From assembly GCA_903813345.2 (NCBI GenBank), contig CAIIXF020000004.1:4171525-4235524 (forward strand): a DNA stretch of 64,000 nucleotides, read 5' to 3'. The DNA is from Owenia fusiformis. Lineage: Eukaryota > Annelida > Polychaeta > Sabellida > Oweniidae. Of the stretch, positions 17,301 through 63,239 are shown in pieces. The notes beneath the pieces were generated by a model. The model did no database searches, was not told where the DNA came from, and was given only the letters and a program-made list of their open reading frames with translations. Made by a program: the position numbers and the translations under genes. Each line of letters starts with the position of its first letter. Positions within the stretch are counted from its first letter, which is position 1.

Positions 17301-20300
17301 CCAATCCAGGCCTGACTACAGGAAGAAATCTTCTAACAAAGATTGGTCCAAATCACAAGACAAATCCAAGTCAGATTTTCGTGATTCCAAGAAGAAATAC
17401 GACAATAAAGGTGGTAAGCACTTCAACAAAGACAACAGATTCTCCAAGAAGTGACCATTCTATGATCCCAATCTTCACAATTCCTCCATATCCAGGACCT
17501 GTAGGGGGAAGATTGATGTTTTTCCTTCCGAATTGGAAGCTGTTAACGGAAGATCCGTTTATACTGAAGATGATCCAGGTAGGATACATCCCACAGATGA
17601 ATTCAACTGTGACGTTATGCACCGAACCAAACCAGTTCGAGTCTTCAACATCGAGCAAAGCAGCTCGTTTCAGCAGAGTGGTAGAGGACCTTCTGCAAAA
17701 GAATGCTGTAGAAGAAGTTCTAAACAGACATTCTCCAGGGTTTTACAGCAATCTATTCTTGGTCAAGAAGAAGAATGGAGAAGACAGACCCGTCATCAAT
17801 TTGAGAACTTTAAATCAAGTCTTAATAGTTCCCAAATTCAAAATGGAAACAGTACAGCAGTACATGACCTCCTTCCAACAAGGCGAATGGGCAGTATCCT
17901 TGGACCTTCGGGATGCTTATCTTCATATAATGATGAAAGAGAACTTCCGGAAGTATCTCCGTTTTGTCGTCAACGGGAAAATTCTGCAATTTCGAGTACT
18001 GCCTTTCGGTCTGGCAACAGCACCGATGATATTCACCAAGATCCTGGAACCCCTAGCCTCATTCTTCCACAAGCTCGGGATAAAACTCCACCGGTATTTA
18101 GACGATTGGTTAATCCGAGGAGCATCGCCACAGGAAGTCTCAGATCACCTACGGATTGTGATGACGGTGACGGAAAACCTTGGCTTCATCATCAATCACA
18201 AGAAATCGCAGTTGATTCCGTTGCAGATCTTCGACTATGTAGGTGTACGGTGGGACCTTCATCTAGGGATGTCCTATCCCCCCCAGGACAGAATAGACAA
18301 AATTCTACACCTAACAGACTGGTTCCTCACAGAAAGTCGAGCAACAGCCAAGCAGTGGATGTCTCTTCTGGGATTACTGGCATCAGCAGAGAAACAAGTC
18401 CCACTGGGGAGATTACACATGAGGTTCCTCCAACAATGCCTGTCTCAGAATTGGTCTCAACTCAGAGATCCATTGGACAAGATGATAACAGTAGATCGTA
18501 CTGCAAGATTGGACCTGTTGTGGTGGAATCAAGGCCAGCATCTGGAGAAAGGGATGACTTTAGCTCCTTTTTCACCAGAAGTGACAATATTCACAGATGC
18601 TTCAACAGCGATGTGGGGAGCTCACATGGATCTGAACATATCGAAAGAGTGCTGTGGAAACTGGTCCCAATCAGAATCCAACAACCACATAAACTGGCTG
18701 GAACTAAAAGCCATACAGAAAGCCCTTCAACACTTTCAGACTCACCTCCAAGGAAAGATGGTGTTAATTTGTGCAGACAACACAACTGCGACAACCTACC
18801 TCAACAAACAAGGGGGAACACAGTCAGCAAAACTGACAGAGTTATCTCGACAGATATGGTTATGGGCCGATTTACATCAAGTCCGTCTTCGCGCAAGACA
18901 TGTGCCAGGTCGACTGAATCGAAGAGCAGATCTGTTGAGCCGGGGAAATCAGATAGTTGCGACAGAATGGTCCTTACATCCAGCAGTTGTCAAACAGATG
19001 TTCAAGATATGGGGAACTCCAAATCTAGACATGATGGCGACATGCTACAACAACCAACTACCAGTGTATGTCTCACCAATACAAGATCAAGCAGCTTGGG
19101 CAACAGACGCTCTATCCCTAAGCTGGCAAAATCTTCATCTGTACATCTATCCCCCCACGCCAGTGATAGGATTAGTTCTACAAAAGATAAAGGATCACGA
19201 CTGTTTAACTCTAGCAATCCTTCCAAAATGGCAGAATCAGCCGTGGTTCCCAGAACTATTGGATCTTCTAGTGGACTATCCAAGGGAAATCCCCCCATTG
19301 GAGAAACTTCTCAAAATGCCAAGAAGTCAGATCTTCCATCAAAATCCAGAACTTTTCCATCTTCACGCTTGCAAACTCTCACGAAATCTCTCACTCAGAA
19401 GGGTTTTTCAACACAAGTGTCAAAAAGAATCGCATCAGATGCTAGAAGACCTTCCACCAACAGAGTCTATGATGCCAAATGGAAGAAGTTCTCTATTTGG
19501 TGTTCTGAGAGGAATCTGGATCCCTGCACAGTCTCTGTTCCAGAAATAGCTGACTTCTTACTTTATCTTCATTCAGTAAAGAAGTTAACAGTGAGTACCA
19601 TTGAAGGTTATAGAACTGTCATCAATCAAGTCCTTCAACATTCAAGTGGCACATCACTCTCGTCGACTCAAGAAATCTCTGATCTGATCCATTCTTTCAA
19701 ATTAGAAGATGCTCAGCCTAAAGATCTGATGCCTAAGTGGGACCTAGTGTTTGTACTACACGAGTTAACCAAACCTCCCTTCGAACCAATGTCGACAGCT
19801 GATCTCAAACACGTATCGTGGAAGACACTTTTCCTTCTACTGTTAGCTTCAGGGAAAAGACGTTCTGACATCCATGCCATAGACATTAGGCGTATACAAT
19901 GGACTAGAAACAACTTGGAAGCGGTACTTTTCCCTTTTGTTGGTTTCCTGCCGAAATCATTGAATTGCGCAGAAGGACAGTCCAGATTCCAACCAATCAC
20001 TATCAAGGCTCTAGCTAATTTCGTTGGAAATGAAACGCCAGATAAATTCTTATGTCCTGTGAGGGCCCTAAGATATTATCTTCAAGCCACAGTTCCTATC
20101 AGAGGAGTCAGGAATAGACTTTTCATCCCCTTCAAGAAAGGATGCAGTTCTGATGTACACCCTAACACTCTCTCTAGTTGGGTGAAACAACTGTTGAACT
20201 ATGTCTACAAGAATGCCTCAGAAGAAAGCAAGTTACAAGGGAAGATACGACCACACGAGACAAGAGCCATATCTTCCTCACTAGCTCTACAAGCCAATGC

Positions 20301-23300
20301 CTCATTAACAGCACTCTTCAAGACCTGTTCATGGGCATCCCACAACACCTTCACAAGTTACTACCTCAGAGATGTGACAGTAATGGAGAAAGGCATGCAC
20401 AAGCTGGGCCCGGTGGTACTAGCTGGCACTCTCTGCAACTTTTAGACGTAAGTGTTCTTCACTCACTATATATCTGCAGATGGATTCACGTGGGAAGCTT
20501 GGCCTCGACTGTTTTGCAGAAGGGTTCAACTCAACTAGCTTGTGACCTGGACCCTTGAAGAACTGCAACGGTTACCTCGTTTGGTTTAAACGGCCCTTTC
20601 TTGGTTAACCAGTCTCTATTCATAGGAGTTGGTCATTACCCTTAAATGGCTAAGACTGCTCACTCTGATAGGACATAACAGTCTCCAGTTGGACATGTAA
20701 CAGCCTCCGTCTTGGATCCAACTAGCAGATGGGGGTAATGGTACATGTACTATTCTTTGGGTGACATCTCATTAGGATGGTAATATAGTTCTTTTGTACT
20801 TTTAGTAACGAGGTCCCCACCTCCTTAACTTTTTATTCAGCATATGTCATGGAATAGGTTGGATTGTATGTAATTGAGAAATTTTACCAGTAAATTTTCT
20901 ATTAATTACAATACAAACCTATTCCATGACCAGAGGCCCACCCAGCCTCCCCGCCTTTGGGAAAATGGAGGTTATTTATTATTTTGTTAGCGTATTAAAT
21001 ATGAATACATAATGAGTTGGGGATCGATATTGGCCACTTGGGCCAGTCCACTTTTTATAAAGGGGTGTTTTTTAGACTTGCCAATTACTCCAAATAAGGG
21101 GAGTAAGCATATGTCATGGAATAGGTTTGTATTGTAATTAATAGAAAATTTACTGGTAAAATTTCTCATTTTGAGCACTCTTTAAAAGTGGTCAACTAGA
21201 CACTCATATTGTATATTGTCAAAACTGTGTGTCAGGTCTCTTTAGAATTTAAATGAAATGTCAGATTTTCTTCAATTTTGTTGTTTTTAATTTGAACACC
21301 AATATCTTAATATATTGCTTGTCCCACTTCTATTTTCTTTATGAATTTGTATTCTTAAACATGAGCCTCTTATATATCCATAGATACTGTTGATTCCCAA
21401 AGAGTTCAGGCGGAAGATAGGGGCAACAAACTAAAACAACTCCTTGTTAAAAGCAAGAAAGATCTTGCTGAGGCTAGAAAAACTGAGAGTGAACAAAGGA
21501 CGTCTGATGCTCAACTACGTGGCCAATTAGAAGCCATGCAAATGCAAGGAGAGGAGCTAAAGGTCAGTCTGAATGTTGGTGTCTCACGCTTTTGAAGGTC
21601 AGTCTGAATGTTGGTGTCCCACACATTTTTTTTTTGTTCTTTACAATGTAGAATGTGATCACCATAATTCAAGCTAGATATACTTTCATGCAAATTTCAA
21701 TAACTGGGACATTATTCTGACATGGGCTAAACATGACTTTAACATGTTTTGAGAAAAATTGGATCCTTTGGATTTTAGGACATATTGTTGTTCAAGTGCA
21801 AGAGTTCAAGGTTGTATCCTTATATTGATTTTATTTCTCCAGGTACATATAGCTGAACTAACTGCTGAAAACCAGAAACATTCCGACAAAATCCGAACAT
21901 TGACCAACTCTCATGAGAGAACCGTACGTGCGTTAGAAAATAAGGTCCAATCCTTACAAGGTGACTTGGAGATATCTAAGAGCGAACTAGTTGCTACTAA
22001 TGCTGAATTTGACTCATATAAGGTGAGTGGAGAGACTCTGGGGATGGACGGGGGGGGGGGGGGGGGGGGGTGAAATAAATGAAGTTCTAATATGGGAAGC
22101 ATAGGGGATAGAAAACAGTCTATGAAATGAGAAAAAAATTATTATTTATCTTTCTAGGGTCTAAATACATTCTTCAATCATTTGTATGTCTTAATTATCA
22201 TAACACACCCTAGAAATCACTGCCGCCCTTTTCAAAACCTATAAATATTGTGATCTGAATAAGGATTAAATATTAACTAATTGATCAAATCAAGCAGTTA
22301 AAATGTAGGATTTAGCACATTGATTGTAAAAACCAAGGGAGATCACTTCAGAATATATTCCATAATTTTTTTTATTTTGTCGTCTCTCAGGTTCGTGTTC
22401 ACAGTGTGCTTAAGCAACAGAAGACTAAATCTCCATCTGACTTTGATCCAGAGGCGGAAAAGCTGGAACGAGTGAGACTTGAAAAGTCAGCTGAACAACT
22501 GAGGTTAAAACTTCATGAAACAAGGTGACAACACTTTCCAAGGATAATTTTAATTAACTGATCTAGAACAGGATTATAGCACTAAGGTTGAAAACATTGA
22601 TGCCAAACTTGCCAGACTGACAATATGTTCATTGCAACTAAAAAGTGATTGCCTCTGGGCATCTAGCAACTTGATATGATAGTGTATATTATACTGGTGT
22701 AAAGATTATGAAATAAATTGAATTGAATTGAAAAAAGGCAACCATGAATTGCTCGATGCTCATGTGGGACTTGAGAGATCAATAAGTTATTTAAACAATT
22801 AAGACTGAGGATCACTAAAAGCATCTTTCATTTTGTGTAAAGATATTTTTTCAATATAACGATGCCCTAAAATAGAGATACAATTATTTCAACACACAGA
22901 AAAAATAAGTGATTGAGAGTATGCTTAATAAGTAGAAAATAAAATCTTGAATTTTATCGTTGTTTTCATTTTAGTGATAACCTAACTGCATCGCTGGCAG
23001 AATATGAAGCTCTACAGGAAGAACATGATAATCTCATGACACGCCACAACAAACTTTTACAAGATAAAGAATCAAGAGAAAACTCATGGAAAAACAAGTA
23101 AGCAATCTTCAGGAAAATTTGTATAAGTGGAATGCTTTTGAAACGTCAAAATAATGCTTCATTTGGAAAAGAGGTTCATCAGAGGTTCATCAGCCTTTTT
23201 AAAAAAATCCAGGGGGTTCACTTTTGACAATTTTGGTCCAAAAATGGCCAAAATCACTTAAAAAGTGCTCGGAATGGTGAACTGCATAATTTTTGAATGA

Positions 23301-26300
23301 ATTTTTGGCCAGGAATTTTTGCTCAGATTGTTTTATAAAAAAAATTGAAATTGTTTTACTATCAGATGTGTTCCACTTTATGTGTTCTCCTGTATACTAC
23401 TGATAAAATGTTACGGATAAATCTATCCTTTGTACAAACTCAATTTTGTAATGAAGTTTTTATTAGTTTGGTGAGGCACAAAAGTGATTTTCCATACCTT
23501 ATATCAATCCAGGTACATGCAGAATGAATGATTATTAAATATTTAATAAGAATTGAATACATGCACAAGTAATGTAGAAAAACATATTTGAAATAACCTT
23601 TTTGTCTTCCAAGTTCGCCTGTGGATACTAAGGATACCAAAAACTGTCCTTGAAAATAAGATTCAATTTTTGAAGTATTGAATTCATTTTCAGATATGAC
23701 CAGTTGAACCAAGACTACAGTACAAGTAATACAGAACACACAGAAACTGTAAGACAATTATCACAACAGAATGAACAACTCACCAGCACATTTAAGGTAA
23801 GTCATGGCCAATGAGAAATATAACAGAACACATAGAAACTGTAAGACAATTATCACAACAGAATGAACAACTCACCAGCACATTTAAGGTAGGTCATGCC
23901 CAATGAGTAATATAACAGAACACACAGAAACTGTTAGACAATTATCACAACAGAATGAACAACTCACCAGCACATTCAAGGTAGGTCATGCCCAATGAGT
24001 AATATAACAGAACACATAGAAACTGTAAGACAATTATCACAACAGAATGAACAACTCACCAGCACATTCAAGGTAAGTCATGCCCAATGAGTAATATAAC
24101 AGAACACATAGAAACTGTTAGACAATTATCACAACAGAATGAACAACTCACCAGCACATTCAAGGTAAGTCATGGCCAATGAGTAATATAACAGAACACA
24201 CAGAAACTGTGAGACAATTATCACAACAGAATGAACAACTCACCAGCACATTCAAGATAGGTCATGCCCAATGAGTAATATAACAGAACACATAGAAACT
24301 GTAAGACAGTTATCACAACAGAATGAACAACTCACCAGCACATTTAAGGTAGGTCATGGCCAATGAGTAATATAACAGAACACATAGAAACTGTAAGACA
24401 ATTATCACAACAGAATGAACAACTCACCAGCACATTTAAGGTAAGTCATGGCCAATGAGAAATATAACAGAACACATAGAAACTGTAAGACAATTATCAC
24501 AACAGAATGAACAACTCACCAGCACATTTAAGGTAGGTCATGCCCAATGAGTAATATAACAGAACACACAGAAACTGTTAGACAATTATCACAACAGAAT
24601 GAACAACTCACCAGCACATTCAAGGTAGGTCATGCCCAATGAGTAATATAACAGAACACATAGAAACTGTAAGACAATTATCACAACAGAATGAACAACT
24701 CACCAGCACATTCAAGGTAAGTCATGCCCAATGAGTAATATAACAGAACACATAGAAACTGTTAGACAATTATCACAACAGAATGAACAACTCACCAGCA
24801 CATTCAAGGTAAGTCATGGCCAATGAGTAATATAACAGAACACACAGAAACTGTGAGACAATTATCACAACAGAATGAACAACTCACCAGCACATTCAAG
24901 ATAGGTCATGCCCAATGAGTAATATAACAGAACACATAGAAACTGTAAGACAGTTATCACAACAGAATGAACAACTCACCAGCACATTTAAGGTAGGTCA
25001 TGGCCAATGAGTAATATAACAGAACACATAGAAACTGTAAGACAATTATCACAACAGAATGAACAACTCACCAGCACATTCAAGGTAAGTCATGCCCAAT
25101 GAGTAATATAACAGAACACATAGAAACTGTTAGACAGTTATCACAACAGAATGAACAACTCACCAGCACATTCAAGGTAGGTCATGGCCAATGAGTAATA
25201 TAACAGAACACACAGAAACTGTAAGACAATTATCACAACAGAATGAACAACTCACCAGCACATTCAAGGTAGGTCATGCCCAATGAGTAATATAACAGAA
25301 CACATAGAAACTGTAAGACAGTTATCACAACAGAATGAACAACTCACCAGCACATTCAAGGTAGGTCATGGCCAATGAGTAATATAACAGAACACATAGA
25401 AACTGTAAGACAATTATCACAACAGAATGAACAACTCACCAGCACATTCAAGGTAGGTCATGCCCAATGAGTAATATAACAGAACACATAGAAACTGTAA
25501 GACAATTATCACAACAGAATGAACAACTCACCAGCTCATTCAAGGTAAGTCATGCCCAATGAGTAATATTACAGAACACATAGAAACTGTAAGACAATTA
25601 TCACAACAGAATGAACAACTCACCAGCACATTCAAGGTAAGTCATGCCCAATGAGTAATATTACAGAACACATAGAAACTGTAAGACAATTATCACAACA
25701 GAATGAACAACTCACCAGCTCATTCAAGGTAAGTCATGCCCAATGAGTAATATAACAGAACACACAGAAACTGTGAGACAATTATCACAACAGAATGAAC
25801 AACTCACCAGCACATTCAAGGTAGGTCATGGCCAATGAGTAATATAACAGAACACATAGAAACTGTAAGACAATTATCACAACAGAATGAACAACTCACC
25901 AGCACATTCAAGATAGGTCATGGCCAATGAGTAATATAACAGAACACATAGAAACTGTAAGACAATTATCACAACAGAATGAACAACTCACCAGCACATT
26001 TAAGGTAAGCTATGGCCAATGAGTAATATAACAGAACACATAGAAACTGTGAGACAGTTATCACAACAGAATGAACAACTCACCAGCACATTCAAGGTAA
26101 GTCATGGCCAATAAGTAATATAACAGAACACATAGAAACTGTGAGACAATTATCACAACAGAATGAACAACTCACCAGCACATTCAAGGTAGGTCATGGC
26201 CAATGAGTAATGTAACAGAACACATAGAAACTGTAAGACAATTATCACAACAGAATGAACAACTCACCAGCACATTCAAGGTAGGTCATGCCCAATGAGT

Positions 26301-29300
26301 AATATAACAGAACACATACAAACTGTAAGACAGTTATCACAACAGAATGAACAACTCACCAGCACATTCAAGGTAAGTCATGGCCAATGAGTAATATAAC
26401 AGAACACACAGAAACTGTAAGACAGTTATCACAACAGAATGAACAACTCACCAGCACATTCAAGGTAAGTCATGGCCAATGAGTAATATAACAGAACACA
26501 TAGAAACTGTTAGACAGTTATCACAACAGAATGAACAACTCACCAGCACATTCAAAGTAGGACATGGCCAATGAGTAATATAACAGAACACATAGAAACT
26601 GTAAGACAATTATCACAACAGAATGAACAACTCACCAGCACATTCAAAGTAGGACATGGCCAATGAGTAATATAACAGAACACACAGAAACTGTAAGACA
26701 ATTATCACAACAGAATGAACAACTCACCAGCACATTCAAGGTAGGTCATGCCCAATGAGTAATATAACAGAACACATAGAAACTGTAAGACAATTATCAC
26801 AACAGAATGAACAACTCACCAGCACATTCAAGGTAAGTCATGGCCAATGAGTAATATAACAGAACACACAGAAACTGTGAGACAATTATCACAACAGAAT
26901 GAACAACTCACCAGCACATTCAAGATAGGTCATGCCCAATGAGTAATATAACAGAACACATAGAAACTGTAAGACAGTTATCACAACAGAATGAACAACT
27001 CACCAGCACATTTAAGGTAGGTCATGGCCAATGAGTAATATAACAGAACACATAGAAACTGTAAGACAATTATCACAACAGAATGAACAACTCACCAGCA
27101 CATTCAAGGTAAGTCATGCCCAATGAGTAATATAACAGAACACATAGAAACTGTAAGACAATTATCACAACAGAATGAACAACTCACCAGCACATTCAAG
27201 GTAGGTCATGCCCAATGAGTAATATAACAGAACACATAGAAACTGTAAGACAATTATCACAACAGAATGAACAACTCACCAGCACATTCAAGGTAAGTCA
27301 TGCCCAATGAGTAATATAACAGAACACATAGAAACTGTAAGACAATTATCACAACAGAATGAACAACTCACCAGCACATTCAAGGTAGGTCATGCCCAAT
27401 GAGTAATATAACAGAACACACAGAAACTGTAAGACAATTATCACAACAGAATGAACAACTCACCAGCACATTCAAGGTAGGTCATGCACAATGAGTAATA
27501 TAACAGAACACATAGAAACTGTAAGACAATTATCACAACAGAATGAACAACTCACCAGCACATTCAAGGTAAGTCATGGCCAATGAGTAATATAACAGAA
27601 CACACAGAAACTGTGAGACAATTATCACAACAGAATGAACAACTCACCAGCACATTCAAGATAGGTCATGCCCAATGAGTAATATAACAGAACACATAGA
27701 AACTGTAAGACAGTTATCACAACAGAATGAACAACTCACCAGCACATTTAAGGTAGGTCATGGCCAATGAGTAATATAACAGAACACATAGAAACTGTAA
27801 GACAATTATCACAACAGAATGAACAACTCACCAGCACATTCAAGGTAAGTCATGCCCAATGAGTAATATAACAGAACACACAGAAACTGTAAGACAGTTA
27901 TCACAACAGAATGAACAACTCACCAGCACATTCAAAGTAGGACATGGCCAATGAGTAATATAACAGAACACATAGAAACTGTTAGACAGTTATCACAACA
28001 GAATGAACAACTCACCAGCACATTCAAGGTAGGTCATGGCCAATGAGTAATGTAACAGAACACATAGAAACTGTAAGACAATTATCACAACAGAATGAAC
28101 AACTCACCAGCACATTCAAGGTAGGTCATGGCCAATGAGTAATATAACAGAACACATAGAAACTGTAAGACAATTATCACAACAGAATGAACAACTCACC
28201 AGCACATTCAAAGTAGGACATGGCCAATGAGTAATATAACAGAACACATAGAAACTGTAAGACAATTATCACAACAGAATGAACAACTCACCAGCACATT
28301 TAAGGTAGGTCATGGCCAATGAGTAATATAACAGAACACATAGAAACTGTAAGACAATTATCACAACAGAATGAACAACTCACCAGCACATTCAAAGTAG
28401 GACATGGCCAATGAGTAATATAACAGAACACATAGAAACTGTTAGACAGTTATCACAACAGAATGAACAACTCACCAGCACATTCAAGGTAGGTCATGGC
28501 CAATGAGTAATATAACAGAACACATAGAAACTGTAAGACAATTATCACAACAGAATGAACAACTCACCAGCACATTCAAGGTAGGTCATGGCCAATGAGT
28601 AATATAACAGAACACATAGAAACTGTGAGACAGTTATCACAACAGAATGAACAACTCACCAGCACATTCAAGGTAGGTCATGGCCAATGAGTAATATAAC
28701 AGAACACATAGAAACTGTGAGACAGTTATCACAACAGAATGAACAACTCACCAGCACATTCAAGGTAGGTCATGCCCAATGAGTAATATAACAGAACACA
28801 TAGAAACTGTTAGACAATTATCACAACAGAATGAACAACTCACCAGCACATTCAAGGTAGGTCATGGCCAATGAGTAATATAACAGAACACATAGAAACT
28901 GTAAGACAGTTATCACAACAGAATGAACAACTCACCAGCACATTCAAGGTAGGTCATGCCCAATGAGTAATATAACAGAACACATAGAAACTGTAAGACA
29001 GTTATCACAACAGAATGAACAACTCACCAGCACATTTAAGGTAGGTCATGGCCAATGAGTAATATAACAGAACACACAGAAACTGTGAGACAGTTATCAC
29101 AACAGAATGAACAACTCACCAGTACATTTAAGGTAAGTTATGCCCAATGAGTAATATAACAGAACACATAGAAACTGTAAGACAATTATCACAACAGAAT
29201 GAACAACTCACCAGCACATTTAAGGTAAGTCATGCCCAATGAGTAATATAACAGAACACATAGAAACTGTAAGACAATTATCACAACAGAATGAACAACT

Positions 29301-32300
29301 CACCAGCACATTCAAGGTAGGTCATGCCCAATGAGTAATATAACAGAACACACAGAAACTGTAAGACAATTATCACAACAGAATGAACAACTCACCAGCA
29401 CATTCAAGGTAAGTCATGGCCAATGTGTAATATAACAGAACACATAGAAACTGTAAGACAATTATCACAACAGAATGAACAACTCACCAGCACATTCAAG
29501 GTAAGTCATGGCCAATGAGTAATATAACAGAACACATAGAAACTGTAAGACAGTTATCACAACAGAATGAACAACTCACCAGCACATTCAAGGTAAGCTA
29601 TGCCCAATGAGTAATATAACAGAACACATAGAAACTGTAAGACAGTTATCACAACAGAATGAACAACTCACCAGCACATTCAAGGTAGGTCATGGCCAAT
29701 GAGTAATATAACAGAACACATAGAAACTGTAAGACAATTATCACAACATAATGAACAACTCACCAGCACATTCAAGGTAGGTCATGGCCAATGAGTAATA
29801 TAACAGAACACATAGAAACTGTAAGACAGTTATCACAACAGAATGAACAACTCACCAGCTCATTCAAGGTAAGTCATGCCCAATGAGTAATATTACAGAA
29901 CACATAGAAACTGTAAGACAATTATCACAACAGAATGAACAACTCACCAGCACATTCAAGGTAAGTCATGCCCAATGAGTAATATAACAGAACACATAGA
30001 AACTGTAAGACAATTATCACAATAGAATGAACAACTCACCAGCACATTCAAGGTAGGTCATGGCCAATGAGTAATATAACAGAACACACAGAAACTGTTA
30101 AACAGTTATCACAACAGAATGAACAACTCACCAGCACATTCAAGGTAAGTCCTTGCCAATGAGTAATATAACAGAACACATAGAAACTGTAAGACAATTA
30201 TCACAATAGAATGAACAACTCACCAGCACATTCAAGGTAAGTCATGGCCAATGAGTAATATAACAGAACACACAGAAACTGTTAGACAATTATCACAACA
30301 GAATGAACAACTCACCAGCACATTCAAGGTAGGTCATGCCCAATGAGGAATATAACAGAACACATAGAAACTGTAAGACAATTATCACAACAGAATGAAC
30401 AACTCACCAGCACATTCAAGGTAGGTCATGGCCAATGAGGAATATAACAGAACACATAGAAACTGTAAGACAATTATCACAACAGAATGAACAACTCACC
30501 AGCACATTCAAGGTAAGTCATGGCCAATGAGTAATATAACAGAACACATAGAAACTGTAAGACAGTTATCACAACAGAATGAACAACTCACCAGCACATT
30601 TAAGGTAGGTCATGGCCAATCAATTTTATTGACATCTCCAGAGATTAACTGTTCAAATTGAATGCCCACATAGCTAGGCAAGGTGTGTCCAATTCCAGAA
30701 AATGTTTTGCAATGTGTGAAAAGAATTCAGCCCAAGACTCGATGCATTGTGGAATGACCATTCCTTTCAGGCATTGTTTCCTAAAATTAACGCCTGATGC
30801 TCTGCATCTCGTGGACATTTTGGAAAGCAACACCTTCAACGAATGGTCATTCCATGTCGCACTGTGTCCAGGGCTTAAATCCTTAAGTAGAGAGAGAGAT
30901 TATTTTGAGTTGACACATTATTGCATGGAGGGGTCTTTAACTATTATTTTGTAAACTAATTTGAATATGATAACTTGATTTAACATTTATCATATAATAT
31001 CATCATATTCTGTCAACTTTTCCATCTGTTTCTTTTTTATGATGTCATACTGTGTGGTTCATTTTATTTTTGTGGTGTCATAATGTGTGATACTAACTGA
31101 GTGTTATTCTTCATCATTGGTAGCATAACAAATGGATAACGTCTAAGTTTACTAGAAGATGGGTATGTCATCTGTTCTTGTGTTTTAAGTCACATCTTAA
31201 TACAGTGAACTTTGTTACAGCATCATGCATTTTGAAATCATTCACATTGTGTGTGCTGACATCAATATTGACATCATTTCACATTATGTGTGCTGACATC
31301 AATATTGACATCATTTCACATTATGTGTGCTGACATCAATACTGCCATCATTCACATTATGTGTGCTGCCAACAATATTTACATCAATATTGACATTATT
31401 TCACATTGTGTGTGCTGATATCAATTTTGACATCATTTCTCTCTGTGTGATGACATCAATATTGACATCATTTCACATTATGTGTGCTGACATCAATATT
31501 GACATCATTATACATGCATACTGAAATCAATCTTGTTGATCTATCATACACATCAGATCAATCGTTAACATCACATTAATAGAGTATAGTATATCATTGT
31601 TGGTTGATATACCATTCATTGTACATATCCATTGTAGACATTGCAGTCATTGCTGACATCATATCCATTGTTACGGTCTTCTTTGGTTTTTGTCGGTCTG
31701 TAACAAATGGGAGGTGGTGATATTTTGCACGTTTAATGATGGACTTGTCTTGTTGATATTATAGTCAGTGTCCACATTACATTCATTGTTGACATCACAT
31801 TCATTGTTAACATCGCATTGACATCATTGTCCACATCACATCCATTGTTGACATTACATTAATTGTTCACATCACATCCATTGTTGGCCTTACACTCATT
31901 GTTTACATCACAACCATCATTGGCATGACATTGATATTGACTTATTTTAATTCCAGCAACAAATGAAACTAATGCAGGAAGACCACCATAGAGCTATAGA
32001 AGCTTTACAGAAACAACTTGACCATGCGGAGAACGAATCGTATCGTCTGGAACGTGAGTTGCAAAATCAACCAATCAGAACTAGCAAACTGGATCGGGAA
32101 CCATCAGAGCCACATTTGGAAATTTTGTTGAAAGATCCACACCGTGAAGAACGCCAAGAAGGGGAGGTGAGTTGAATGCTTAAAATTTCTTAATTGTATT
32201 TGAATTAAGAGCTGAATAGTCTACCTGCAGAATTTCTAGCATGGACTCGTCCTAGATATTTAACTGATTCATTTCTTTTGTTTGTTTTAAAGTTGACCGA

Positions 32301-35300
32301 AGCAAGTTGCAGGTTACTATATTTTTCAAGTTAAAGGGGCACAGTCTCTAGCTTTGACCTAAAATATACCAATATTGTAGTAGAGTCCATTAAATGGTGC
32401 AAATTGCAAGTAATAATGTTTATTTCTCACATCACCCCTTATGGAAAAAACTAAAGAGTATACAAGAAGCAATCTTGAATAACAAACATTTAAATAACAT
32501 TTATACATGTGCGACATACATCTTCTTGCCAAGCCTCGATCAAAAATTTACATATATGTTTTATTTTCTAATTACATACAATCCAACCTATTCCATGACA
32601 TATGACATATGCTTACTCCCCTTATTTGGAGTAATTGGCAAGTCTAAAAAAACACCCCTTTATAAAAAAAGTGGACTGGCCCAAGTGGCCAATATCGATC
32701 CCCAACTCATTATGTATTCATATTTAATTCTTGCCACGTAGGAGTAATTGGAATTTTTCAAGTCAATATATATCGTACGATCTATTCACTCAACAAATTT
32801 CTGTTACTTATAAGTCAGAATTTGTTTTTTGAATAGAGAGTATCATAGTCATAACTTTAGTCTAGTATGGCAGAACAGGGCTCTATTCAGGGTGAAATTA
32901 CTTCTGAATTGAACTTGAACGGTCCCTCGACCTCGTCAACTTTGACCGGGAATGAAGTGATAAACGACGTCTCTTTGGCTACCACATCCGTCACAGATTA
33001 TGTCCAATCCTTAGTGGAAGAGGCGGTGACTAGGAAAATGGCTACCCTTGGAAACAGGCCACCAACGAGACCTCCTTCTGACCGTAGAAGCCCGTCTTCA
33101 AGCTATTTACACAACTCGGAATACTCGCTTCCGAGAGAGCAGTCCCCCCGGAGCAGTAAGAAGGCCGTAGAGACGGGAAAACGAGGTAACGATTCGCACC
33201 AAAATGACACCAAATTTCGTGACTACAACTATTCCGCCACACACCACGTGGACGTAAGTAGGTCAACTTTTCGAAATCGTTCAAGATCTCCCGTTTCTCA
33301 GCTTAGAAGCCCTTCTAGATTGTCTCACCACTCCTACTCTCACACTAATAGACCCTCTGATAGTTCGCCGAGTAGGATTTCCGGGACTTCACGTCAGGGA
33401 ACTCAGAATTCACGATCCATTATCAACAATTTTAGTTCCAAAATTTCACAATCTCAAAATTCAGATTCTAAACCTCGTATTTTGGATTCTGATGACAACG
33501 AGCCGTCGAAATCTAAGTCCTCTGAAGAAGAAACGGTCTTGTTAGTTCGTTCCTTATGGGATTCAACCATATCAGCCTTAGAAATTGACCAAGTCAACAG
33601 CTCCACTAATTCTAAAGAATCTTTGACAAGGGTAGCTCTCCAGAAAGTTGATGAATCTTCAGTCACTAAAGCTTCATTACCTTGTCCCCCAGTGTTCCAT
33701 CAGTTGGTGCAGAATATCAATAATCAGATCTCATCTGCCACTTCCGGTTTCAACACAAAGGGAAAACTCTTCAGAATCAAATCTTCAAATTATAGATTAG
33801 CCAAGGGAGATGATTCAGTCGTACGGCCCCTCAAACTCAATAATTCACTTGGAAACTTAGTCCCAAATGATAAAACCTTCAGTGATTTCTTCAAGAATGC
33901 TGATACTAAAACTCAACTCTCCAATAAAAACTGGAAGGGTCTCGAAGAGAACTTGAGGGCTGTCCTTCAACCTTTGGTGTACTCAGAGTGGTATATAGGT
34001 TCTGTTTCAAAGTTAGTTACCCAACTCACAGCACACTTATCCAACAACACGGATCCACTAGTTACCCAGTTGTTAGATTCCATGGGCGATTTACTCCTTA
34101 GGGGTTCGACAGCCTCTGTTACTGCTACTGAAGGTATTCTCAAGACTCTCACCAACTCAGCATTACTTCAACGTGATCTGATTCAAGAACAAGTACCAAC
34201 ACGCTTCCGCGAATCTATGAGGGTACTACCAGTTGAGCATACATCTACCACTTTGTATCCAGAGTCACAACTTAAAGATTTGGTTGACTCAGCCTCCTCA
34301 AATCTGACAAACCAAGCACTAGTTACCTTGGCCCAGTCCAGTTCTAGATCTAGTAAAGACAAAGACAGGTCCCAACGCCAATCCAGGTCTGACTACAGGA
34401 AGAAATCTTCTAACAAAGATTGGTCCAAATCACAAGACAAACCCAAGTCAGATTTTCGTGATTCCAAGAAGAAATACGACAATAAAGGTGGTAAGCACTT
34501 CAACAAAGACAACAGATTCTCCAAGAAGTGACCATTCTATGATCCCAATCTTCACAATTCCTCCATTTCCAGGACCTGTAGGGGGAAGATTGATGTTTTT
34601 CCTTCCGAATTGGAAGCTGTTAACGGAAGATCCGTTTATACTGAAGATGATCCAGGTAGGATACATCCCACAGATGAATTCAACTGTGACGTTATGCACC
34701 GAACCAAACCAGTTCGAGTCTTCAACATCGAGCAAAGCAGCTCGTTTCAGCAGAGTGGTAGAGGACCTTCTGCAAAAGAATGCTGTAGAAGAAGTTCTAA
34801 ACAGACATTCCCCAGGGTTTTACAGCAATCTATTCTTGGTCAAGAAGAAGAATGGAGAAGACAGACCCGTCATCAATTTGAGAACTTTAAATCAAGTCTT
34901 AATAGTTCCCAAATTCAAAATGGAAACAGTACAGCAGTACATGACCTCCTTCCAACAAGGCGAATGGGCAGTATCCTTGGACCTTCGGGATGCTTATCTT
35001 CATATAATGATGAAAGAGAACTTCCGGAAGTATCTCCGTTTTGTCGTCAACGGAAAAATTCTGCAATTTCGAGTCCTGCCTTTCGGTCTGGCAACAGCAC
35101 CGATGATATTCACCAAGATCCTGGAACCCCTAGCCTCGTTCTTCCACAAGCTCGGGATAAAACTCCACCGGTATTTAGACGATTGGTTAATCCGAGGAGC
35201 ATCGCCACAGGAAGTCTCAGATCACCTATGGATTGTGATGACGGTGACGGAAAACCTTGGCTTCATCATCAATCACAAGAAATCGCAGTTGATTCCGTTG

Positions 35301-38300
35301 CAGATCTTCGACTATGTAGGTGTACGGTGGGACCTTCATCTAGGGATGTCCTATCCCCCCCAGGACAGAATAGACAAAATTCTACACCTAACAGACTGGT
35401 TCCTCACAGAAAGTCGAGCAACAGCCAAGCAGTGGATGTCTCTTCTGGGATTACTGGCATCAGCAGAGAAACAAGTCCCACTGGGGAGATTACACATGAG
35501 GTTCCTCCAACAATGCCTGTCTCAGAATTGGTCTCAACTCAGAGATCCATTGGACAAGATGATAACAGTAGATCGTACTGCAAGATTGGACCTGTTGTGG
35601 TGGAATCAAGGCCAGCATCTGGAGAAAGGGATGACTTTAGCTCCATTTTCACCAGAAGTGACAATATTCACAGATGCTTCAACAGCGATGTGGGGTGCTC
35701 ACATGGATCGGAACATATCGAAAGAGTGCTGTGGAAACTGGTCCCAATCAGAATCCAACAACCACATAAACTGGCTGGAACTAAAAGCCATTCAGAAAGC
35801 CCTTCAATACTTTCAGACTCACCTCCAAGGAAAGATGGTGTTAATTTGTGCAGACAACACAACTGCGACAACCTACCTCAACAAACAAGGGGGAACACAG
35901 TCAGCAAAACTGACAGAGTTATCTCGACAGATATGGTTATGGGCCGATTTACATCAAGTCCGTCTTCGCGCAAGACATGTGCCAGGTCGACTGAATCGAA
36001 GAGCAGATCTGTTGAGCCGGGGAAACCAGATAGTTGCGACAGAATGGTCCTTACATCCAGCAGTTGTCAAACAGATGTTCAAGATATGGGGAACTCCAAA
36101 TCTAGACATGATGGCGACATGCTACAACAACCAACTACCAGTGTATGTCTCACCAATACAAGATCAAGCAGCTTGGGCAACAGACGCTCTATCCCTAAGC
36201 TGGCAAAATCTTCATCTGTACATCTATCCCCCCACGCCAGTGATAGGATTAGTTCTACAAAAGATAAAGGATCACGACTGTTTAGCTCTAGCAATCCTTC
36301 CAAAATGGCAGAATCAGCCGTGGTTCCCAGAACTATTGGATCTTCTAGTGGACTATCCAAGGGAAATTCCCCCATGGGAGAAACTTCTCAAAATGCCAAG
36401 AAGTCAGATCTTCCATCAAAATCCAGAACTTTTCCATCTTCACGCTTGCAAACTCTCACGAAATCTCTCACTCAGAAGGGTTTTTCAACACAAGTGTCAA
36501 AAAGAATCGCATCAGATGCTAGAAGACCTTCCACCAACAGAGTCTATGATGCCAAATGGAAGAAGTTCTCTATTTGGTGTTCTGAGAGGAATCTGGATCC
36601 CTGCACAGTCTCTGTTCCAGAAATAGCTGACTTCTTACTTTATCTTCATTCAGTAAAGAAGTTAACAGTGAGTACCATTGAAGGTTATAGAACTGTCATC
36701 AATCAAGTCCTTCAACAATCAAGTGGCACATCACTCTCGTCGACTCAAGAAATCTCTGATCTGATCCATTCTTTCAAATTAGAAGATGCTCAGCCTAAAG
36801 ATCTGATTCCTAAGTGGGATCTAGTGTTTGTACTACACGAGTTAACCAAACCTCCCTTCGAACCAATGTCGACAGCTGATCTCAAACACGTATCGTGGAA
36901 GACACTTTTCCTTCTACTGTTAGCTTCAGGGAAAAGACGTTCTGACATCCATGCCATAGACATTAGGCGTATACAATGGACTAGAAACAACTTGGAAGCG
37001 GTACTTTTCCCTTTTGTTGGTTTCCTGCCGAAATCATTGAATTGCGCAGAAGGACAGTCCAGATTCCAACCAATCACCATCAAGGCTCTAGCTAATTTCG
37101 TTGGAAATGAAACGCCAGATAAATTCTTATGTCCTGTGAGGGCCCTAAGATATTATCTTCAAGCCACAGTTCCTATCAGAGGATCCAGAAATAGACTTTT
37201 CATCCCCTTCAAGAAAGGATGCAGTTCTGATGTACACCCTAACACTCTCTCTAGTTGGGTGAAACAACTGTTGAACTATGTTTACAAGAATGCCTCAGAA
37301 GAAAGCAAGTTACAAGGGAAGATACGACCACACGAGACAAGAGCCATATCTTCCTCACTAGCTCTACAAGCCAATGCCTCATTAACAGCACTCTTCAAGA
37401 CCTGTTCATGGGCATCCCACAACACCTTCACAAGTTACTACCTCAGAGATGTGACAGTAATGGAGAAAGGCATGCACAAGCTGGGCCCGGTGGTACTAGC
37501 TGGCACTCTCTGCAACTTTTAGACGTAAGTGTTTCTTCACTCACTCTATATCTGCAGATGGATTCACGTGGGAAGCTTGGCCTCGACTGTTTTGCAGAAG
37601 GGTTCAACTCAACTAGCTTGTGACCTGGACCCTTGAAGAACTGCAACGGTTACCTCGTTTGGTTTAAACGGCCCTTTCTTGGTTAACCAGTCTCTATTCA
37701 TAGGAGTTGGTCATTACCCTTAAATGGCTAAGACTGCTCACTCTGATAGGACATAACAGTCTCCAGTTGGACATGTAACAGCCTCCGTCTTGGATCCAAC
37801 TAGCAGATGGGGGTAATGGTACATGTACTATTCTTTGGGTGACATCTCATTAGGATGGTAATATAGTTCTTTTGTACTTTTAGTAACGAGGTCCCCACCT
37901 CCTTAACTTTTTATTCAGCATATGTCATGGAATAGGTTGGATTGTATGTAATTGAGAAATTTTACCAGTAAATTTTCTATTAATTACAATACAAACCTAT
38001 TCCATGACCAGAGGCCCACCCAGCCTCCCCGCCTTTGGGAAAATGGAGGTTATTTATTTATTTTGTTAGCGTATTAAATATGAATACATAATGAGTTGGG
38101 GATCGATATTGGCCACTTGGGCCAGTCCACTTTTTTATAAAGGGGTGTTTTTTTAGACTTGCCAATTACTCCAAATAAGGGGAGTAAGCATATGTCATAT
38201 GTCATGGAATAGGTTTGTATTGTAATTAATAGAAAATTTACTGGTAAAATTTCTCATTTTCATATTATATTATGGGTAGTAATGATATACAATACGATAC

Positions 38301-46980: not shown

Positions 46981-47292
46981 GAAATATTTATTCATCATTA
47001 ACACAATTTTTGTATAACTTTGACTCATTTTCTTTCTCTCAAAGTTATTCATTTTCAACATGAACTTGGTTCTTTATTTTCTGCATCATCACTTGCTTTA
47101 ACCTCATAAGCTCTTGCTGTTTCTTAAAAATAATATATATTTCAATGAAATATTTATTCATCGTTAACACAATTTTTGTGTAACTTTGACTCATTTTCTC
47201 TCTCTCGAGGTTATTCATTTTCAACATGAACTTGGTTCTTTATTTTTTGCATCATTGCTTGCTTTAACCTCGTAAGCTCTTGCTTTTTCTTT
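46981..47292 (-). repeat. 166-bp tandem duplication of the PR/SET gene 3' end
   Basis: 46981-47126 repeats 47147-47292 with an offset of 166 bp. Both copies include the codons for KIKNQVHVENE, the stop and the following sequence with TGAATAAAT. Only the copy joined to the SET exon (stop at 47211) is in frame with it. Confidence 0.85.
47153..47158 (-). terminator. polyadenylation signal of the PR/SET gene
   Basis: AATAAA on the minus strand about 53 bp after the stop codon. A duplicate lies at 46987-46992. Confidence 0.5.
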
Positions 47293-47480
47293 CTCATTAG
47301 TATCTCGTCTCTACATGTATACCAAGAATGATATGGACTGATTTCCCTTTGCATTGTCTCATTGAACCACTTGCAGTATGTCTCAGGTGGAATTCTTAGA
47401 CCATTCATCGTGTATTTCCAACCATAAAATACAAAGAGTTCTGATCCTGCTGGAATGTCCTTTATGGCTCGGTAATATAC
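47211..47480 (-). CDS. PR/SET protein terminal exon
   Basis: 89 codons and stop. Acceptor ATATGCTTACAG|GTATATTACC; the first 10 bases are also the edge of the 32-bp array. Carries AIKDIPAGSELFVFYGWKY and a charged tail. Its last part and the 3' flank are duplicated 166 bp downstream. Confidence 0.88.
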   Translation of the reverse strand, partial: VYYRAIKDIPAGSELFVFYGWKYTMNGLRIPPETYCKWFNETMQREISPYHSWYTCRDEILMRKKKQELTRLKQAMMQKIKNQVHVENE

Positions 47481-50400
47481 CTGTAAGCATATATAATGAC
47501 ATGGTAATATATCTGCAAACATACATTATGACATAATATGTCTGCAAACATATATTATGACATGGTAATATATCTGCAAACATATATTATGACATGGTAA
47601 TATACCTGCAAACATATATGATGACATGGTAATATACCTGCAAACATATATTATGGCATGGTAATATATCTGCAAACATATATTATGACATGGTAGTATA
47701 TCTGCAAACATATATGATGACATGGTAATATATCTGCAAACATATATTATGACATGGTAATATATCTGCAAACATATATTATGACATGGTAGTATATCTG
47801 CAAACATATATTATGACATGGTAATATATCTGCAAAAATACATTATAATATGATAAAATTATCTGCAAAAACATATTATGACATGGTAATATATCTGCAA
47901 ACATATATTAATATGACATGGTAATATATCTGCAAACATATATTATGACATGGTAATATATCTGCAAACATATATTATGACATGGTAATATATCTGCAAA
48001 CATATATTATGACATGGTAATATATCTTCAAACATATATTATGACATGGTAATATATCTACAAGCATATATTAGGACATGGTAATATATCTGCAAACATA
48101 TATTATGACATGGTAATATATCTGCAAACATATATTATGACATGGTAATATATCTGCAAACATATATTATGACATGGTAATATATCTGCAAACATATATT
48201 ATGACATGGTAATATATCTGCAAACACATATTATGACATTGTGATATATCTGCAAACATATATTATGACATGGTAGTATATCTGCAAACATATATTATGA
48301 CATGGTAATATATCTGCAAACATATATTATGACATGGTAATATATCTGCAAACACATATTATGACATTGTGATATATCTGCAAACATATATTATGACATG
48401 GTAGTATATCTGCAAACATATATTATGACATGGTAATATATCTGCAAACATATATTATGGCATGGTAATATATCTGCAAACATATATTATGACATGGTGA
48501 TATATCTGCAAACATATATGATGACATGGTAATATATCTGCAAACATATATTATGACATGGTAATATATCTGCAAACACATATTATGACATTGTGATATA
48601 TCTGCAAACATATATTATGACATGGTAGTATATCTGCAAACATATATTATGACATGGTAATATATCTGCAAACATATATTATGGCATGGTAATATATCTG
48701 CAAACATATATTATGACATGGTAATATATCTACAAGCATATATTAGGACATGGTAGTATATCTGCAAACATATATTATGACATGGTAATATATCTGCAAA
48801 CATATATTATGACATGGTAATATATCTGCAAACACATATTATGACATTGTGATATATCTGCAAACATATATTATGACATGGTAGTATATCTGCAAACATA
48901 TATTATGACATGGTAATATATCTGCAAACATATATTATGGCATGGTAATATATCTGCAAACATATATTATGACATGGTGATATATCTGCAAACATATATG
49001 ATGACATGGTAATATATCTGCAAACATATATGATGACATGGTAATATATCTGTAAACATATATTATGACATGGTAATATATCTGTAAACATATATTATGA
49101 CATGGTAATATATCTGCAAACATATATAATGACATGGTAATATATCTGCAAGCATATATGATGACATGGTAATATATCTGTAAACATATATTATGACATG
49201 GTAATATATCTGCAAACATATATAATGACATGGTAATATATCTGCAAGCATATATTATGACATGGTAAAATATCTTCAAAAATATATTAAGACATGGTCA
49301 TATATCTGCAAACATGTATAATAACATGGTAATATATCTGCAAACATATATTATGACATGGTAATATATCTGCAAACATATATTATGACATGGTAATATA
49401 TCTGCAAACACATATTATGACATGATACTATGTCTGCAAACATATATTATGACATGGTCATATATCTGCAAGCATATATTATGACATGGTAATATATCTG
49501 CAAACATATATTATGACATGGTAATATATCTGCAAACATATATTATGACATGGTAATATACCTGCAAACATATATGATGACATGGTAGTATATCTGCAAA
49601 CATATATTATGACATGGTAATATATCTGCAAACATATATTAATATGACATGGTAATATATCTGCAAACATATATTATGACATGGTAATATATCTGTAAAC
49701 ACATATTATGATATGGTAATATATCTGCAAACATATATTATGACATGGTAATATATCTGCAAACACATATTATGAGATGGTAATATATCTGCAAACATAT
49801 ATTATGACATGGTAATGTATTTGCAAACATATATTATGACATGGTCATATATCTGCAAACATATATTATGATATGGTAATATATCTGCAAGCATATATTA
49901 TGACATTGTAATATATCTGCAAACATATATTATGACATGGTAATATATCTGCAAGCATATATTATGACATTGTGATATATCTGCAAACATATATTTTGGC
50001 ATGGTAATATACCTGCAAACATATATTATGACATGGTAATATATCTGCAAACATATATTATGACATGGTAATATATCTTCAAACATATATTATGACATGG
50101 TAAAATATCTGCAAACATATATTATGACATGGTAATATATCTGCAAACATATATTATGACATGGTAATATATCTGCAAACATATATGATGACATGGTAAT
50201 ATATCTGCAAACATATATAATGACATGGTAATATATCTACAAGCATATATTAGGACATGGTAATATATCTACAAGCATATATTATGAAATGGTAATATAT
50301 CTGCAAACATATATTTTGGCATGGTAATATACCTGCAAACATATATTATGACATGGTAATATACATGCAAGCATATATTATGACATGGTAATATATCTGC

Positions 50401-53400
50401 AAACATATATGATGACATGGTAATATATCTACAAATACTCGTATATTAGGACATGGTAATATATCTGCAAGCATATATTATGACATGGTAGTATATCTGC
50501 AAACATATATTATGACATGGTAATATATCTGCAAACATATATTATGGCATGGTAATATATCTGCAAACATATATTATGACATGGTAATATATCTGCAAAC
50601 ATATATTATGACATGGTAATATATCTGCAAACATATATAATGACATGGTAATATATCTGCAAACATATATGATGACATGGTAATATATCTGCAAACATAT
50701 ATGATGACATGGTAATATATCTGCAAACATATATTATGACATGGTAGTATATCTGCAAACATATATTATGACATGGTAATATACCTGCAAACATATATTA
50801 TGACATGGTAGTATATCTGCAAACATATATTATGACATGGTAATATATCTGCAAACATATATTATGACATGGTAAAATATCTGCAAACATATATTATGAC
50901 ATGGTAATATACCTGCAAACATATATGATGACATGGTAGTATATCTGCAAACATATATTATGACATGGTAATATATCTGCAAACATATATTAATATGACA
51001 TGGTAATATATCTGCAAACATATATTATGACATGGTAATATATCTGCAAGCATATATTATGACATGGTAATATATCTGCAAACATATATTATGACATGGT
51101 AATATATCTACAAGCATATATTAGGACATGGTAATATATCTGCAAGCATATATTATGACATGGTAGTATATCTGCAAACATATATTATGACATGGTAATA
51201 TACCTGCAAACATATATTAGGACATGGTAATATATCTGCAAACATATATTATGACATGGTAATATATCTGCAAACATATATAATGACATGGTAATATATC
51301 TTCAAGCATATATTAGGACATGGTAATATATCTGCAAGCATATATTATGACATGGTAATATATCTGCAAACATATATAATGACATGGTAATATATCTTCA
51401 AGCATATATTAGGACATGGTAATATATCTGCAAACATATATTATGACATGGTAATATATCTGCAAACATATATAATGACATGGATATATATCTGCAAACA
51501 TATATTATGACATGGTAATATATCTGCAAACATATATAATGACATGGTAATATATCTGCAAACATATATTATGACATGGTAATATATCTGCAAATATTAT
51601 ATTATGACATGGTAATATATCTGCAAACATATATTATGACATGGTAATATATCTGCAAACACATATTATGGCATGGTAATATACCTGCAAACATATATTA
51701 TAACATGCTAATATATCTGCAAACATACATTATGACATGGTTATATATCTGCAAACATATATTATGACATGGTAATATACCTGCAAACATATTATGACAT
51801 GGTAATACATCTGCAAACATATATTATGACAGGGTAACATATCTGCAAACATATATTATGACATGGTAATATATCTGCAAACATATATTATGAGATGGTA
51901 ATATATCTACAAACATATATTATGACATGGTAATATATCAACAAGGATATATTATGACATGGTAATATACCTGCAAACATATATTATGGCATGGTAATAT
52001 ATCTGCAAACATATATTATGACATGGTAATATATCTACAAACATATATTATGACATGGTAATATACCTGCAAACATATATTATGGCATGGTAATATATCT
52101 GCAAACATATATTATGACATGGTAATATATCTGCAAACATATATTATGACATGGTAATATACCTGCAAGCATATATTATGACATGGTAATATATCTGCAA
52201 ACACATATTATGACATGGTAATATATCTGCAAACATATATTATGACATGGTAATATACCTGCAAACATATATAATGACATGGTAATATACCTGCAAACAT
52301 ATATTATGACATGGTAATACATCTGCAAACATATATTATGACATGGTAATATATCTGCAAACATATATTAATATGACATGGTAATATATCTTCAAGCATA
52401 TATTAGGACATGGTAATATATCTGCAAACATATATTATGACATGGTAATATACCTGCAAACACATATTATGACATGGTAATATACCTGCAAACATATATT
52501 ATGGCATGGTAATATATCTGCAAACATATATTATGACATGGTAATATACCTGCAAACATATATTATGACATGGTAATATACCTGCAAACATATATTATGA
52601 CATGGTAATATATCTGCAAATATTATATTATGACATGGTAATATATCAACAAGGATATATTATGACATGGTAATATATCTGCAAACATATATTATGACAT
52701 GGTAATATATCTGCAAACATATATTATGACAGGGTAATATATCTGCAAAGTTTATATTATGGCATTTATTCTATGACAACAAAACTCATCATAAGTACAT
52801 ATACTTTCTCACATACTTCTCATTGACATTTCAATGAACTCCTTGAGTGAGAGGTGTTTCTCTATTATTTCAAGGTAAATATCAATTGAACAGTTCAGAT
52901 CACTGTATCTATTGTATTGTATATCCAGATCGCAATGTCTATAGGTATTTTGAACTTAAAGTAATCCTACCATTTATTATGGACAATATGTTTCTATTCT
53001 GGAAAATTCCTGGCTGAAAAATATTGATTCAAACGGCTTGACTCGCTTTAAGGTACTTAACTTGGAGCAGTATTCTTGATATAAATGTGTGCTGGAGGCA
53101 TATATTTGCACAAAAGTTTGTTTTGGAATTTATTATATTTAATTTGAGAGATTTATGTATGGATTAGACTCAAAACCAACCAGGCTTGAAGAAGACATTT
53201 ATTACAAATATTTTGATCCTTTTTTATGTCTAAGTATATTATCTATTGTATCGGTTACATTCTTCTTCAGTTTAATAAGCAAATCGGAATGTTTGCCCAT
53301 TTATAAGATTTATTCGTTTCTGCTTTTCATCACAAAGAACATCAATATATTCAAATTTAAAGTTGATATTGTTTAACATTGGTTTAATATCATGATAGTA

Positions 53401-56128: not shown

Positions 56129-56159
56129 CTAAAAAAGGTAATAGAAAAGTTGATTTTTT

Positions 56160-56330
56160 TATGTCATCATTAGAAGTTATGACACATTGTTTTGGTCTCC
56201 AACTTTTTTGTGGATTGTGTTCAATGGTTGGCATTTGGGGTTTGGTGCTTGGCAATCAGTGTTCGGTGTTCATTGTCTGTAACAAATGACAGGTAGTGAT
56301 ATTTTGCATATTAATGCCTCGTCTAATCAA
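56160..56330 (+). mobile_element. degenerate pearl-like element without core
   Basis: ATGTCATCATTAGAAGTTAT at the left (degenerate form of TGTCACCACCAAAAGGTGGT), then TTGTTTTGGTCTCCAACTTT, GTCTGTAACAAATGACAG and the tail GGTAGTGATATTTTGCATAT. It adjoins the upstream side of the PR/SET exon at 56128. Confidence 0.55.
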
Positions 56331-62728: not shown

Positions 62729-63239
62729 GTAGCAGCAGTAGAACTGTCTTACCTGTTACGGTTGACTGTAGAACATGTTTGGCAAAGATGGGTAGCAGCA
62801 GTAGAAATGCCTTACCTGTTATGGTTGACTGTAGAACATGTTTGGCAAGTATGGGTAGCAGCAGTAGAACTGTCTTACCTGTTATGGTTGACTGTAAAAC
62901 ATGTTTGGCAAGGATGGGTAGCAGCAGTAGAACTGTCTCACCTGTTATGGTTGACTGTAGAACATGTTTGGCAAAGATGGGTAGCAGCAGTAGAACTGTC
63001 TTACCTGTTACGGTTGACTGTAGAACATGTTTGGCAAAGATGGTTAGCAGCAGTAGAAATGTCTTACCTGTTATGGTTGACTGTAGAACATGTTTGGCAA
63101 GGATGGGTAGCAGCAGTAGAACTGTTTACCTGTTATGGTTGACTGTAAAACATGTTTGGCAAGGATGGGTAGCAGCAGTAGAACTGTCTTACCTGTTATG
63201 GTTGACTGTAGAACATGTTTGGCAAAGATGGGTAGCAGC
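62729..63239. repeat. 63-bp minisatellite, second block
   Basis: Same unit as 61360-61861. The last five or so units have the same order of variants as the first block, showing that the block was copied together with the hAT element. Confidence 0.92.

Follow-up and report, generated by a model that had tools for sequence, protein, structure and literature searches.

The closest described relative of the structure reported here is in human CBS, where a 31-bp variable number tandem repeat (VNTR), c.1444_1467+7(16_21), is present in 16-21 copies (PMC2630376) and where each unit, as read from that name, crosses a splice donor with 24 bp of exon and 7 bp of intron. A second CBS variant in the same source, 844_845ins68, duplicates an intron-exon junction in tandem; the more distal site is strongly favored and the mRNA is normal. 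Competition between splice sites has been followed in designed libraries, and there the first of two equal tandem donors was predominantly used, whereas tandem acceptors had no order preference (PMC6783452). Tandem duplication over an exon-intron boundary has also been described as a route by which an intron was gained (PMC4974935). Here we analyze a 64,000-nucleotide stretch of the Owenia fusiformis genome (contig CAIIXF020000004.1, positions 4,171,525 to 4,235,524; the whole stretch is called the window), in which a tandem array in an intron of the golgin gene GCC2 repeats the end of an exon together with its splice donor.

The CBS VNTR is the closest precedent, and the GCC2 array is a larger version of that architecture: a 31-bp unit in 16-21 copies at one human locus there, and a 92-bp unit in 74 copies here, with donor and acceptor versions genome-wide. 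The CBS repeats are reportedly alternatively spliced. CBS 844_845ins68 shares with the GCC2 array the tandem duplication of a junction, of which one is strongly favored in CBS; having only two copies on the intron 7/exon 8 side, it is nearer to the acceptor-type array described below. The libraries share with it the competition of identical donors, which in the libraries the first wins, but they consist of designed pairs, in contrast to about 70 natural copies at 92-nt steps. The intron gain likewise involved duplication over an exon-intron boundary, but there a new intron arose, whereas the GCC2 units lack a good acceptor. A literature search of titles and abstracts found no description of splice-junction arrays as a class occurring in donor and acceptor form.

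Tandem Repeats Finder gave a period of 92 and 74.9 copies with 96% matches and 0% indels, in agreement with a first-pass annotation, made from the letters alone, that had counted 74 copies of 92 bp from the founder donor. The annotation had placed the array at 23694-30610; the array stands, but similarity to the exon begins at 23731 and the final partial unit stops at about 30620. Each unit is the end of the exon at 23694-23796 followed by the splice donor and the first intron bases. A junction unit had thus been correctly recognized, but its proposed make-up (about 70 bp of exon and 22 bp of intron) appears to be better parsed as exon-derived sequence, a 3-bp insertion and about 16 bp of intron. 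Seventy-five donor positions lie in register, the founder included; 70 have GT (36 AAGGTAGGT, 27 AAGGTAAGT, 5 AAAGTAGGA and 2 AAGGTAAGC) and five have AT (AAGATAGGT). Hence all but five keep GT, as had been claimed, but not always as GTAAGT or GTAGGT, from which 7 of the 70 depart at position +6. Mean pairwise identity among copies 1-73 is 96%. The units are tandem, in register and of exon end, donor and intron start, with the founder junction at the exon side, as in an exon-intron-spanning VNTR of the CBS 31-bp type; in unit length (about 10-100 bp) and high identity the array is a minisatellite. A founder exon elsewhere, which the annotation had named as grounds for giving up its reading, was sought by comparing the founder exon and a single unit with the 498-Mb genome: among the best candidates there were 74 matches, all within the GCC2 array, and no second founder.

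The intron carrying the array spans 23797-31956 and the next exon begins at 31957 (CAG/CAACAA). The consensus unit has eight AGs, and for no AG do pyrimidines make up more than 7 of the preceding 12 nt; the AG preceding the GT has 7/12 and an A at -3, and the remaining AGs have 4 to 6. The units therefore lack a polypyrimidine-AG acceptor, as the annotation had stated, and a tandem cassette exon array of the Dscam type was rejected in favor of a ladder of donors that stems from the GCC2 exon.

To judge from its sequence the array-bearing gene is GCC2, also as first named, because the exons at 21843-22022, 22391-22524, 22975-23097, 23694-23796 and 31957-32166 join with GT/AG splice sites into one 250-codon frame, a GRIP domain (C4:4247578-4247670, 36 bits) follows on the same strand about 12 kb past the window, and the two C-terminal exons joined, the second being the GRIP exon, gave a single PDB match at E up to 0.1, to GCC2 (3bbp_D, E 4e-5, residues 1-35 of 85). 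Exons were traced within the window as far as the one that ends at 39223, and those of the C-terminus were identified separately beyond it. A coiled coil and a C-terminal Rab-binding and GRIP region thus stand in one gene, as in a GRIP golgin.

There are 74 later donor positions, 69 with GT, and all 69 read into the same TGA after VSHGQ, the peptide and stop that had been predicted for reading past the first donor. Since read-through from every later GT donor reaches this stop, the founder is predicted to be the only productive donor of the array. The TGA sits at least 74 nt upstream of any junction made by a later donor; the 50-55-nt rule for nonsense-mediated decay (NMD) comes mainly from mammals. 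Because stop and distance are common to all 69, mRNAs from later donors are expected to form one NMD-prone class, not a set of protein isoforms. The annotation had them acquire frame-shifted sequence and a stop; the stop was borne out, but no variable sequence is added, the same TGA lying five codons into the intron. Truncation ahead of the Golgi-targeting C-terminus, as it also proposed, agrees with the downstream position of the GRIP domain. The founder is not stronger than most copies: it pairs with U1 at -10.3 kcal/mol and the commonest copy at -10.0 kcal/mol, and 65 of the 75 donors, founder included, fall at -9.5 to -10.3 kcal/mol. The founder donor is probably the one used, since it adjoins the body of the exon and since the first among equal tandem donors is favored, and we infer that it probably supplies nearly all productive GCC2 mRNA.

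The GCC2 array is probably a splice-junction minisatellite that is tolerated, a by-product of the prolific birth of minisatellites. A short stretch across the exon end, the donor and the first intron bases would have been duplicated in tandem and would then have expanded through slippage or unequal exchange. Blocks, one of them with the coding exon end in it, were copied as the array grew: 695 bp from 23742 recur identically seven units (644 bp) later, and this suggests, from the one assembly examined, that copy number varies between individuals. Such duplication would leave the founder exon and donor intact on the exon side and push all copies into the intron, where the array could be tolerated as nearly harmless while splicing picks the founder donor, and any leaky use of later donors would yield a single class of truncated mRNA prone to NMD. 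If minisatellites are born very often, some would span splice junctions and produce donor and acceptor arrays at other genes. Selection for donor function left no visible trace in the copies: 24 of the 92 columns vary among copies 1-73, the columns of the donor 9-mer no less than the others (4/9 versus 20/83, Fisher P 0.23), and by this measure of column variability no excess conservation of donors was seen.

An acceptor-type array in the same window is the mirror image of the GCC2 donor array, adjoining its exon on the minus strand. AG is kept in 161 of 167 aligned units, and among the 143 in-register acceptors recognized, counting the founder, the founder is the sole one to preserve the frame with no stop. 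A genome search with the junction gave 46 matches, all inside the array at 47471-52765, and thus found none elsewhere. The gene beside it is PR/SET-like, weakly by score, an assignment made because two different stretches of the same PR profile occur in order with a middle exon, recognized by eye, at 54471-54605. The PRDM2_PR and SET matches on the founder exon are both under the Pfam curated cut-offs, as is the PRDM2_PR match (7.1e-5) of the preceding PR-like exon within 55488-56255. The best Pfam score on the founder exon was Nitrate_red_del (8.8e-5, just over its own cut-off), which we took as chance.

Similar arrays occur at other genes. The donor-array pattern was AGGTAAGT three times at a gap of 20-50 or 51-81, and the control was the same letters reversed; overlapping matches numbered 450 versus 362 reversed at the shorter gap and 612 versus 372 at the longer. 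The first 100 of the 450 and the first 100 of the 612 matches listed held 22 distinct arrays, and the 5' edge was fetched for 20 of these (all but C2:22932031 and C2:27516117). Seven of the 20 begin at an exon identified by homology, six by Pfam and one by PDB (Table 1), with homology that ends 0-5 residues short of the first donor. By eye, nine others have an open frame that extends to the first donor but no homology that was accepted, two have nothing exon-like, and in two the edge was not reached. Some of the nine are presumably nameable, for example as tetraspanin and HSP110. Weak matches were not accepted (L050, 0.004; L062, HSP70, 0.017; acceptor array L064, 2OG-oxygenase, 0.0029), and founder homology was not found for L056 and L053 in PDB, for L068 in PDB or for six exon candidates in NCBIfam. 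The acceptor-array pattern, TTTTGCAGG three times, gave 34 matches versus 24 for the reversed control and seven distinct arrays, whose 3' edges comprised one exon with accepted homology (myosin-Ib, PDB 2e-7), four open frames, that of L064 among them, and two with nothing exon-like. The weight for recurrence lies in each homology reaching right up to the first donor.

Several results tell against an array that is merely tolerated and passed over by splicing. Exon-derived columns vary less than intron-derived ones (13/70 versus 11/22; of the two comparisons of this kind, this one gave Fisher P 0.0056), a possible sign that the copies are constrained, and 6 of 12 exon-part variants are synonymous where 3.3 are expected (P 0.084, not significant; the test left out columns 0-3 at the unit edge, four columns of which two are variable). 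Repeated seeding from the selected exon could equally give both the low exon-column variation and the synonymous lean. The donor pairs from which first-site preference is known were designed, 2-77 nt apart and in human contexts (PMC6783452). The absence of order preference among tandem acceptors, in the same study, counts against extending the argument to the acceptor array; acceptor ladders would need exon definition or some other rule. No excess of donor arrays over reversed-8-mer control arrays was found: among the matches listed for gap 20-50 on C1 and the first 29.6 Mb of C2 there were 4 distinct donor arrays and 12 control arrays. Finally, a control array too can lie beside an exon. When both edges of 10 of the 12 listed control arrays (20 edges, longest open frame of each) were compared with Pfam, one edge scored below 0.001, a SNF transporter exon (3.6e-18) with its match stopping about 45 bp short of the array; three more, at 0.0033-0.024, were taken as chance.

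Arrays thus do not form preferentially at donors. Pfam matches below 0.001 were found for 6 of 18 donor arrays (L051 and L052 left out) and 1 of 10 control arrays, a difference not significant by numbers alone and drawn from an unsymmetrical comparison, the donor-array frames having been selected visually so that they end at the donor. Among 25 kinase-domain loci, none had an array crossing an end of the domain match. Sixteen arbitrary 8-kb pieces (128 kb) contained eight arrays that had a period of 28-89 and no fewer than 2.9 copies, equivalent to about 31,000 per genome, and in 142 kb taken from outside the window about 8% was minisatellite sequence. If consensus donors number 25,000, which is a guess, and units are 55 bp long, one would expect about 70 junction arrays, and the 14 distinct arrays listed on C1 and C2 (98 Mb) also scale to about 70, both figures being good to an order of magnitude only. 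The class looks like the output of random minisatellite birth in a repeat-rich genome, because donor arrays are not commoner than reversed controls and because one of ten control arrays also lies beside an exon.

The near-equal U1 pairing of 65 of the 75 donors (-9.5 to -10.3 versus -10.3 kcal/mol for the founder) would suit a ladder of poison donors that compete with the founder, each loss giving the same NMD target, so that array length tunes GCC2 output. Another fit is the stop that all 69 of the later GT donors have in common, which lies at least 74 nt ahead of the new junction. By the title of a 2001 report by Lievers, the CBS junction VNTR is said to be associated with reduced enzyme activity, which we counted for such a ladder. 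Set against this are the lack of excess conservation of the donors, the same architecture at unrelated genes and the preference for the first donor in PMC6783452, and we regard the poison ladder as unlikely. Its genome-wide form, in which junction arrays are length-variable control elements whose copy number sets the rate of missing the founder and tunes many genes via NMD, with GCC2 an extreme, seems to us quite improbable. Arrays of this kind also begin beside exons of genes unrelated to GCC2, which suits a general by-product better than a device specific to GCC2, and this together with the unexceptional donor columns spoke against the sequestration of U1 or modulation of GCC2 isoforms that the first-pass annotation had suggested; a role in regulation or as a U1 decoy is conceivable, but nothing found here supports it. 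As a decoy or telescripting platform, about 70 intronic sites would titrate U1 or shield the long transcript from premature polyadenylation. Dense U1-complementary sites across 6.8 kb are what such a platform would offer, but the nascent transcripts of one gene could hardly titrate abundant U1, the U1-pairing columns show no sign of selection, and acceptor-type arrays also exist; we think this very unlikely.

AAGGT, present in 65 of the 75 units, could serve as acceptor plus donor (AAG/GT), making the units incipient introns or cassette exons, either because they are spliced recursively or because duplicated AGGT had given rise to introns, and the intron reported to have been created by tandem duplication over an intron-exon boundary (PMC4974935) gives this a precedent. 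Cassette exons and recursive splicing are nevertheless highly improbable, because none of the eight consensus AGs, including the one before GT with its A at -3, exceeds 7/12 pyrimidines. Tandem arrays are a classic site of assembly error, and the repeat might have been inflated or invented during assembly. This we consider very unlikely, however: the 24 variable columns show combinations of variants that recur and blocks that are ordered, no N occurs anywhere in the window, the contig is 31.9 Mb long, and many further tandem arrays are found in the same genome.

Probably a tolerated splice-junction minisatellite, the GCC2 array has its main value as a natural experiment and less as a proven means of regulation. 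Choice among equally good 5' splice sites has previously been studied with designed pairs; the window holds two natural ladders, one of about 70 near-identical donors and one of about 160 acceptors, in both of which the working frame is predicted to come from the founder alone. Such ladders could reveal whether position alone decides, how far first-site preference reaches and what splicing noise costs. They also suggest that minisatellite birth can cross splice junctions repeatedly without evident loss of the genes.

Table 1. Features of the two window arrays, and founder exons identified for donor arrays elsewhere in the genome
Feature	Position in window	Strand	Remarks
Founder GCC2 exon	23694..23796	+	103 bp; last ~66-73 bp seed the repeat unit; in frame with neighboring exons
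Founder donor GTAAGT (AAG/GTAAGT)	23797..23802	+	Predicted only productive donor among the 70 with GT
92-bp x 74.9 exon-intron junction array	23731..30620	+	Tandem Repeats Finder and unit table; 70/75 donor positions GT
Block duplication	23742..25080	+	695 bp from 23742 identical 644 bp (7 units) further on
Common TGA (VSHGQ-stop)	23812..23814	+	Met from all 69/69 later GT donors
Downstream GCC2 exon	31957..32166	+	Acceptor TTTTAATTCCAG/CAACAA
Last exon of PR/SET-like gene (VYYRAIKDIPAGSELFVFYG...), founder of acceptor-type array	47211..47480	-	PRDM2_PR 9.2e-5, SET 0.0055
32-bp x 165 intron-exon junction array (..ATGTTTGCAG/ATATATTACC..)	47471..52765	-	Tandem Repeats Finder; founder at exon-side end
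Donor-array founder exon, Muted-like			Pfam 5.9e-15
Donor-array founder exon, NIF phosphatase			Pfam 4.9e-6
Donor-array founder exon, UDP-glucose/GDP-mannose dehydrogenase			Pfam 1.5e-10
Donor-array founder exon, FANCI solenoid			Pfam 5.7e-6, under its curated cut-off
Donor-array founder exon, ligand-gated channel			Pfam 6.6e-14
Donor-array founder exon, MRPL52			Pfam 7.6e-7; also searched in PDB
Donor-array founder exon, KIAA0895-like			PDB 2.3e-7

Other repeats were seen in and around GCC2. A 63-bp repeat at 10912-11211 lies within a large open coiled-coil exon of the gene and its length is in frame. Two copies of a retrotransposon, which we take to be DIRS-like, stand between GCC2 exons at about 15500-21170 and 32570-38260, flanking the array; they are 99.0% identical over 5.7 kb and have a reverse transcriptase, an RNase H and a weak tyrosine-recombinase match. 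A single-frame MFS transporter (Nodulin-like/MFS_1) at 42282-43724, on the GCC2 strand, apparently sits inside a long GCC2 intron. Beyond the acceptor-type array, a 63-bp array occurs twice, at 61366-61861 and 62729-63239, each time followed by the same 27-bp array, and the reverse strand of the unit has CAGGTAAGA.

Elsewhere in the genome, a 54-bp x 7 array at L001:6579-6962 has a unit with the acceptor-like TTTTCTCTGTTTCCAG, and no exon was recognized next to it. In a 58-bp array on the minus strand (L047, C1:51116462-51116989), for which no founder exon was seen, most listed units have a polypyrimidine-ATAG, six bases and GTAAGT, and the array resembles repeated micro-exons.

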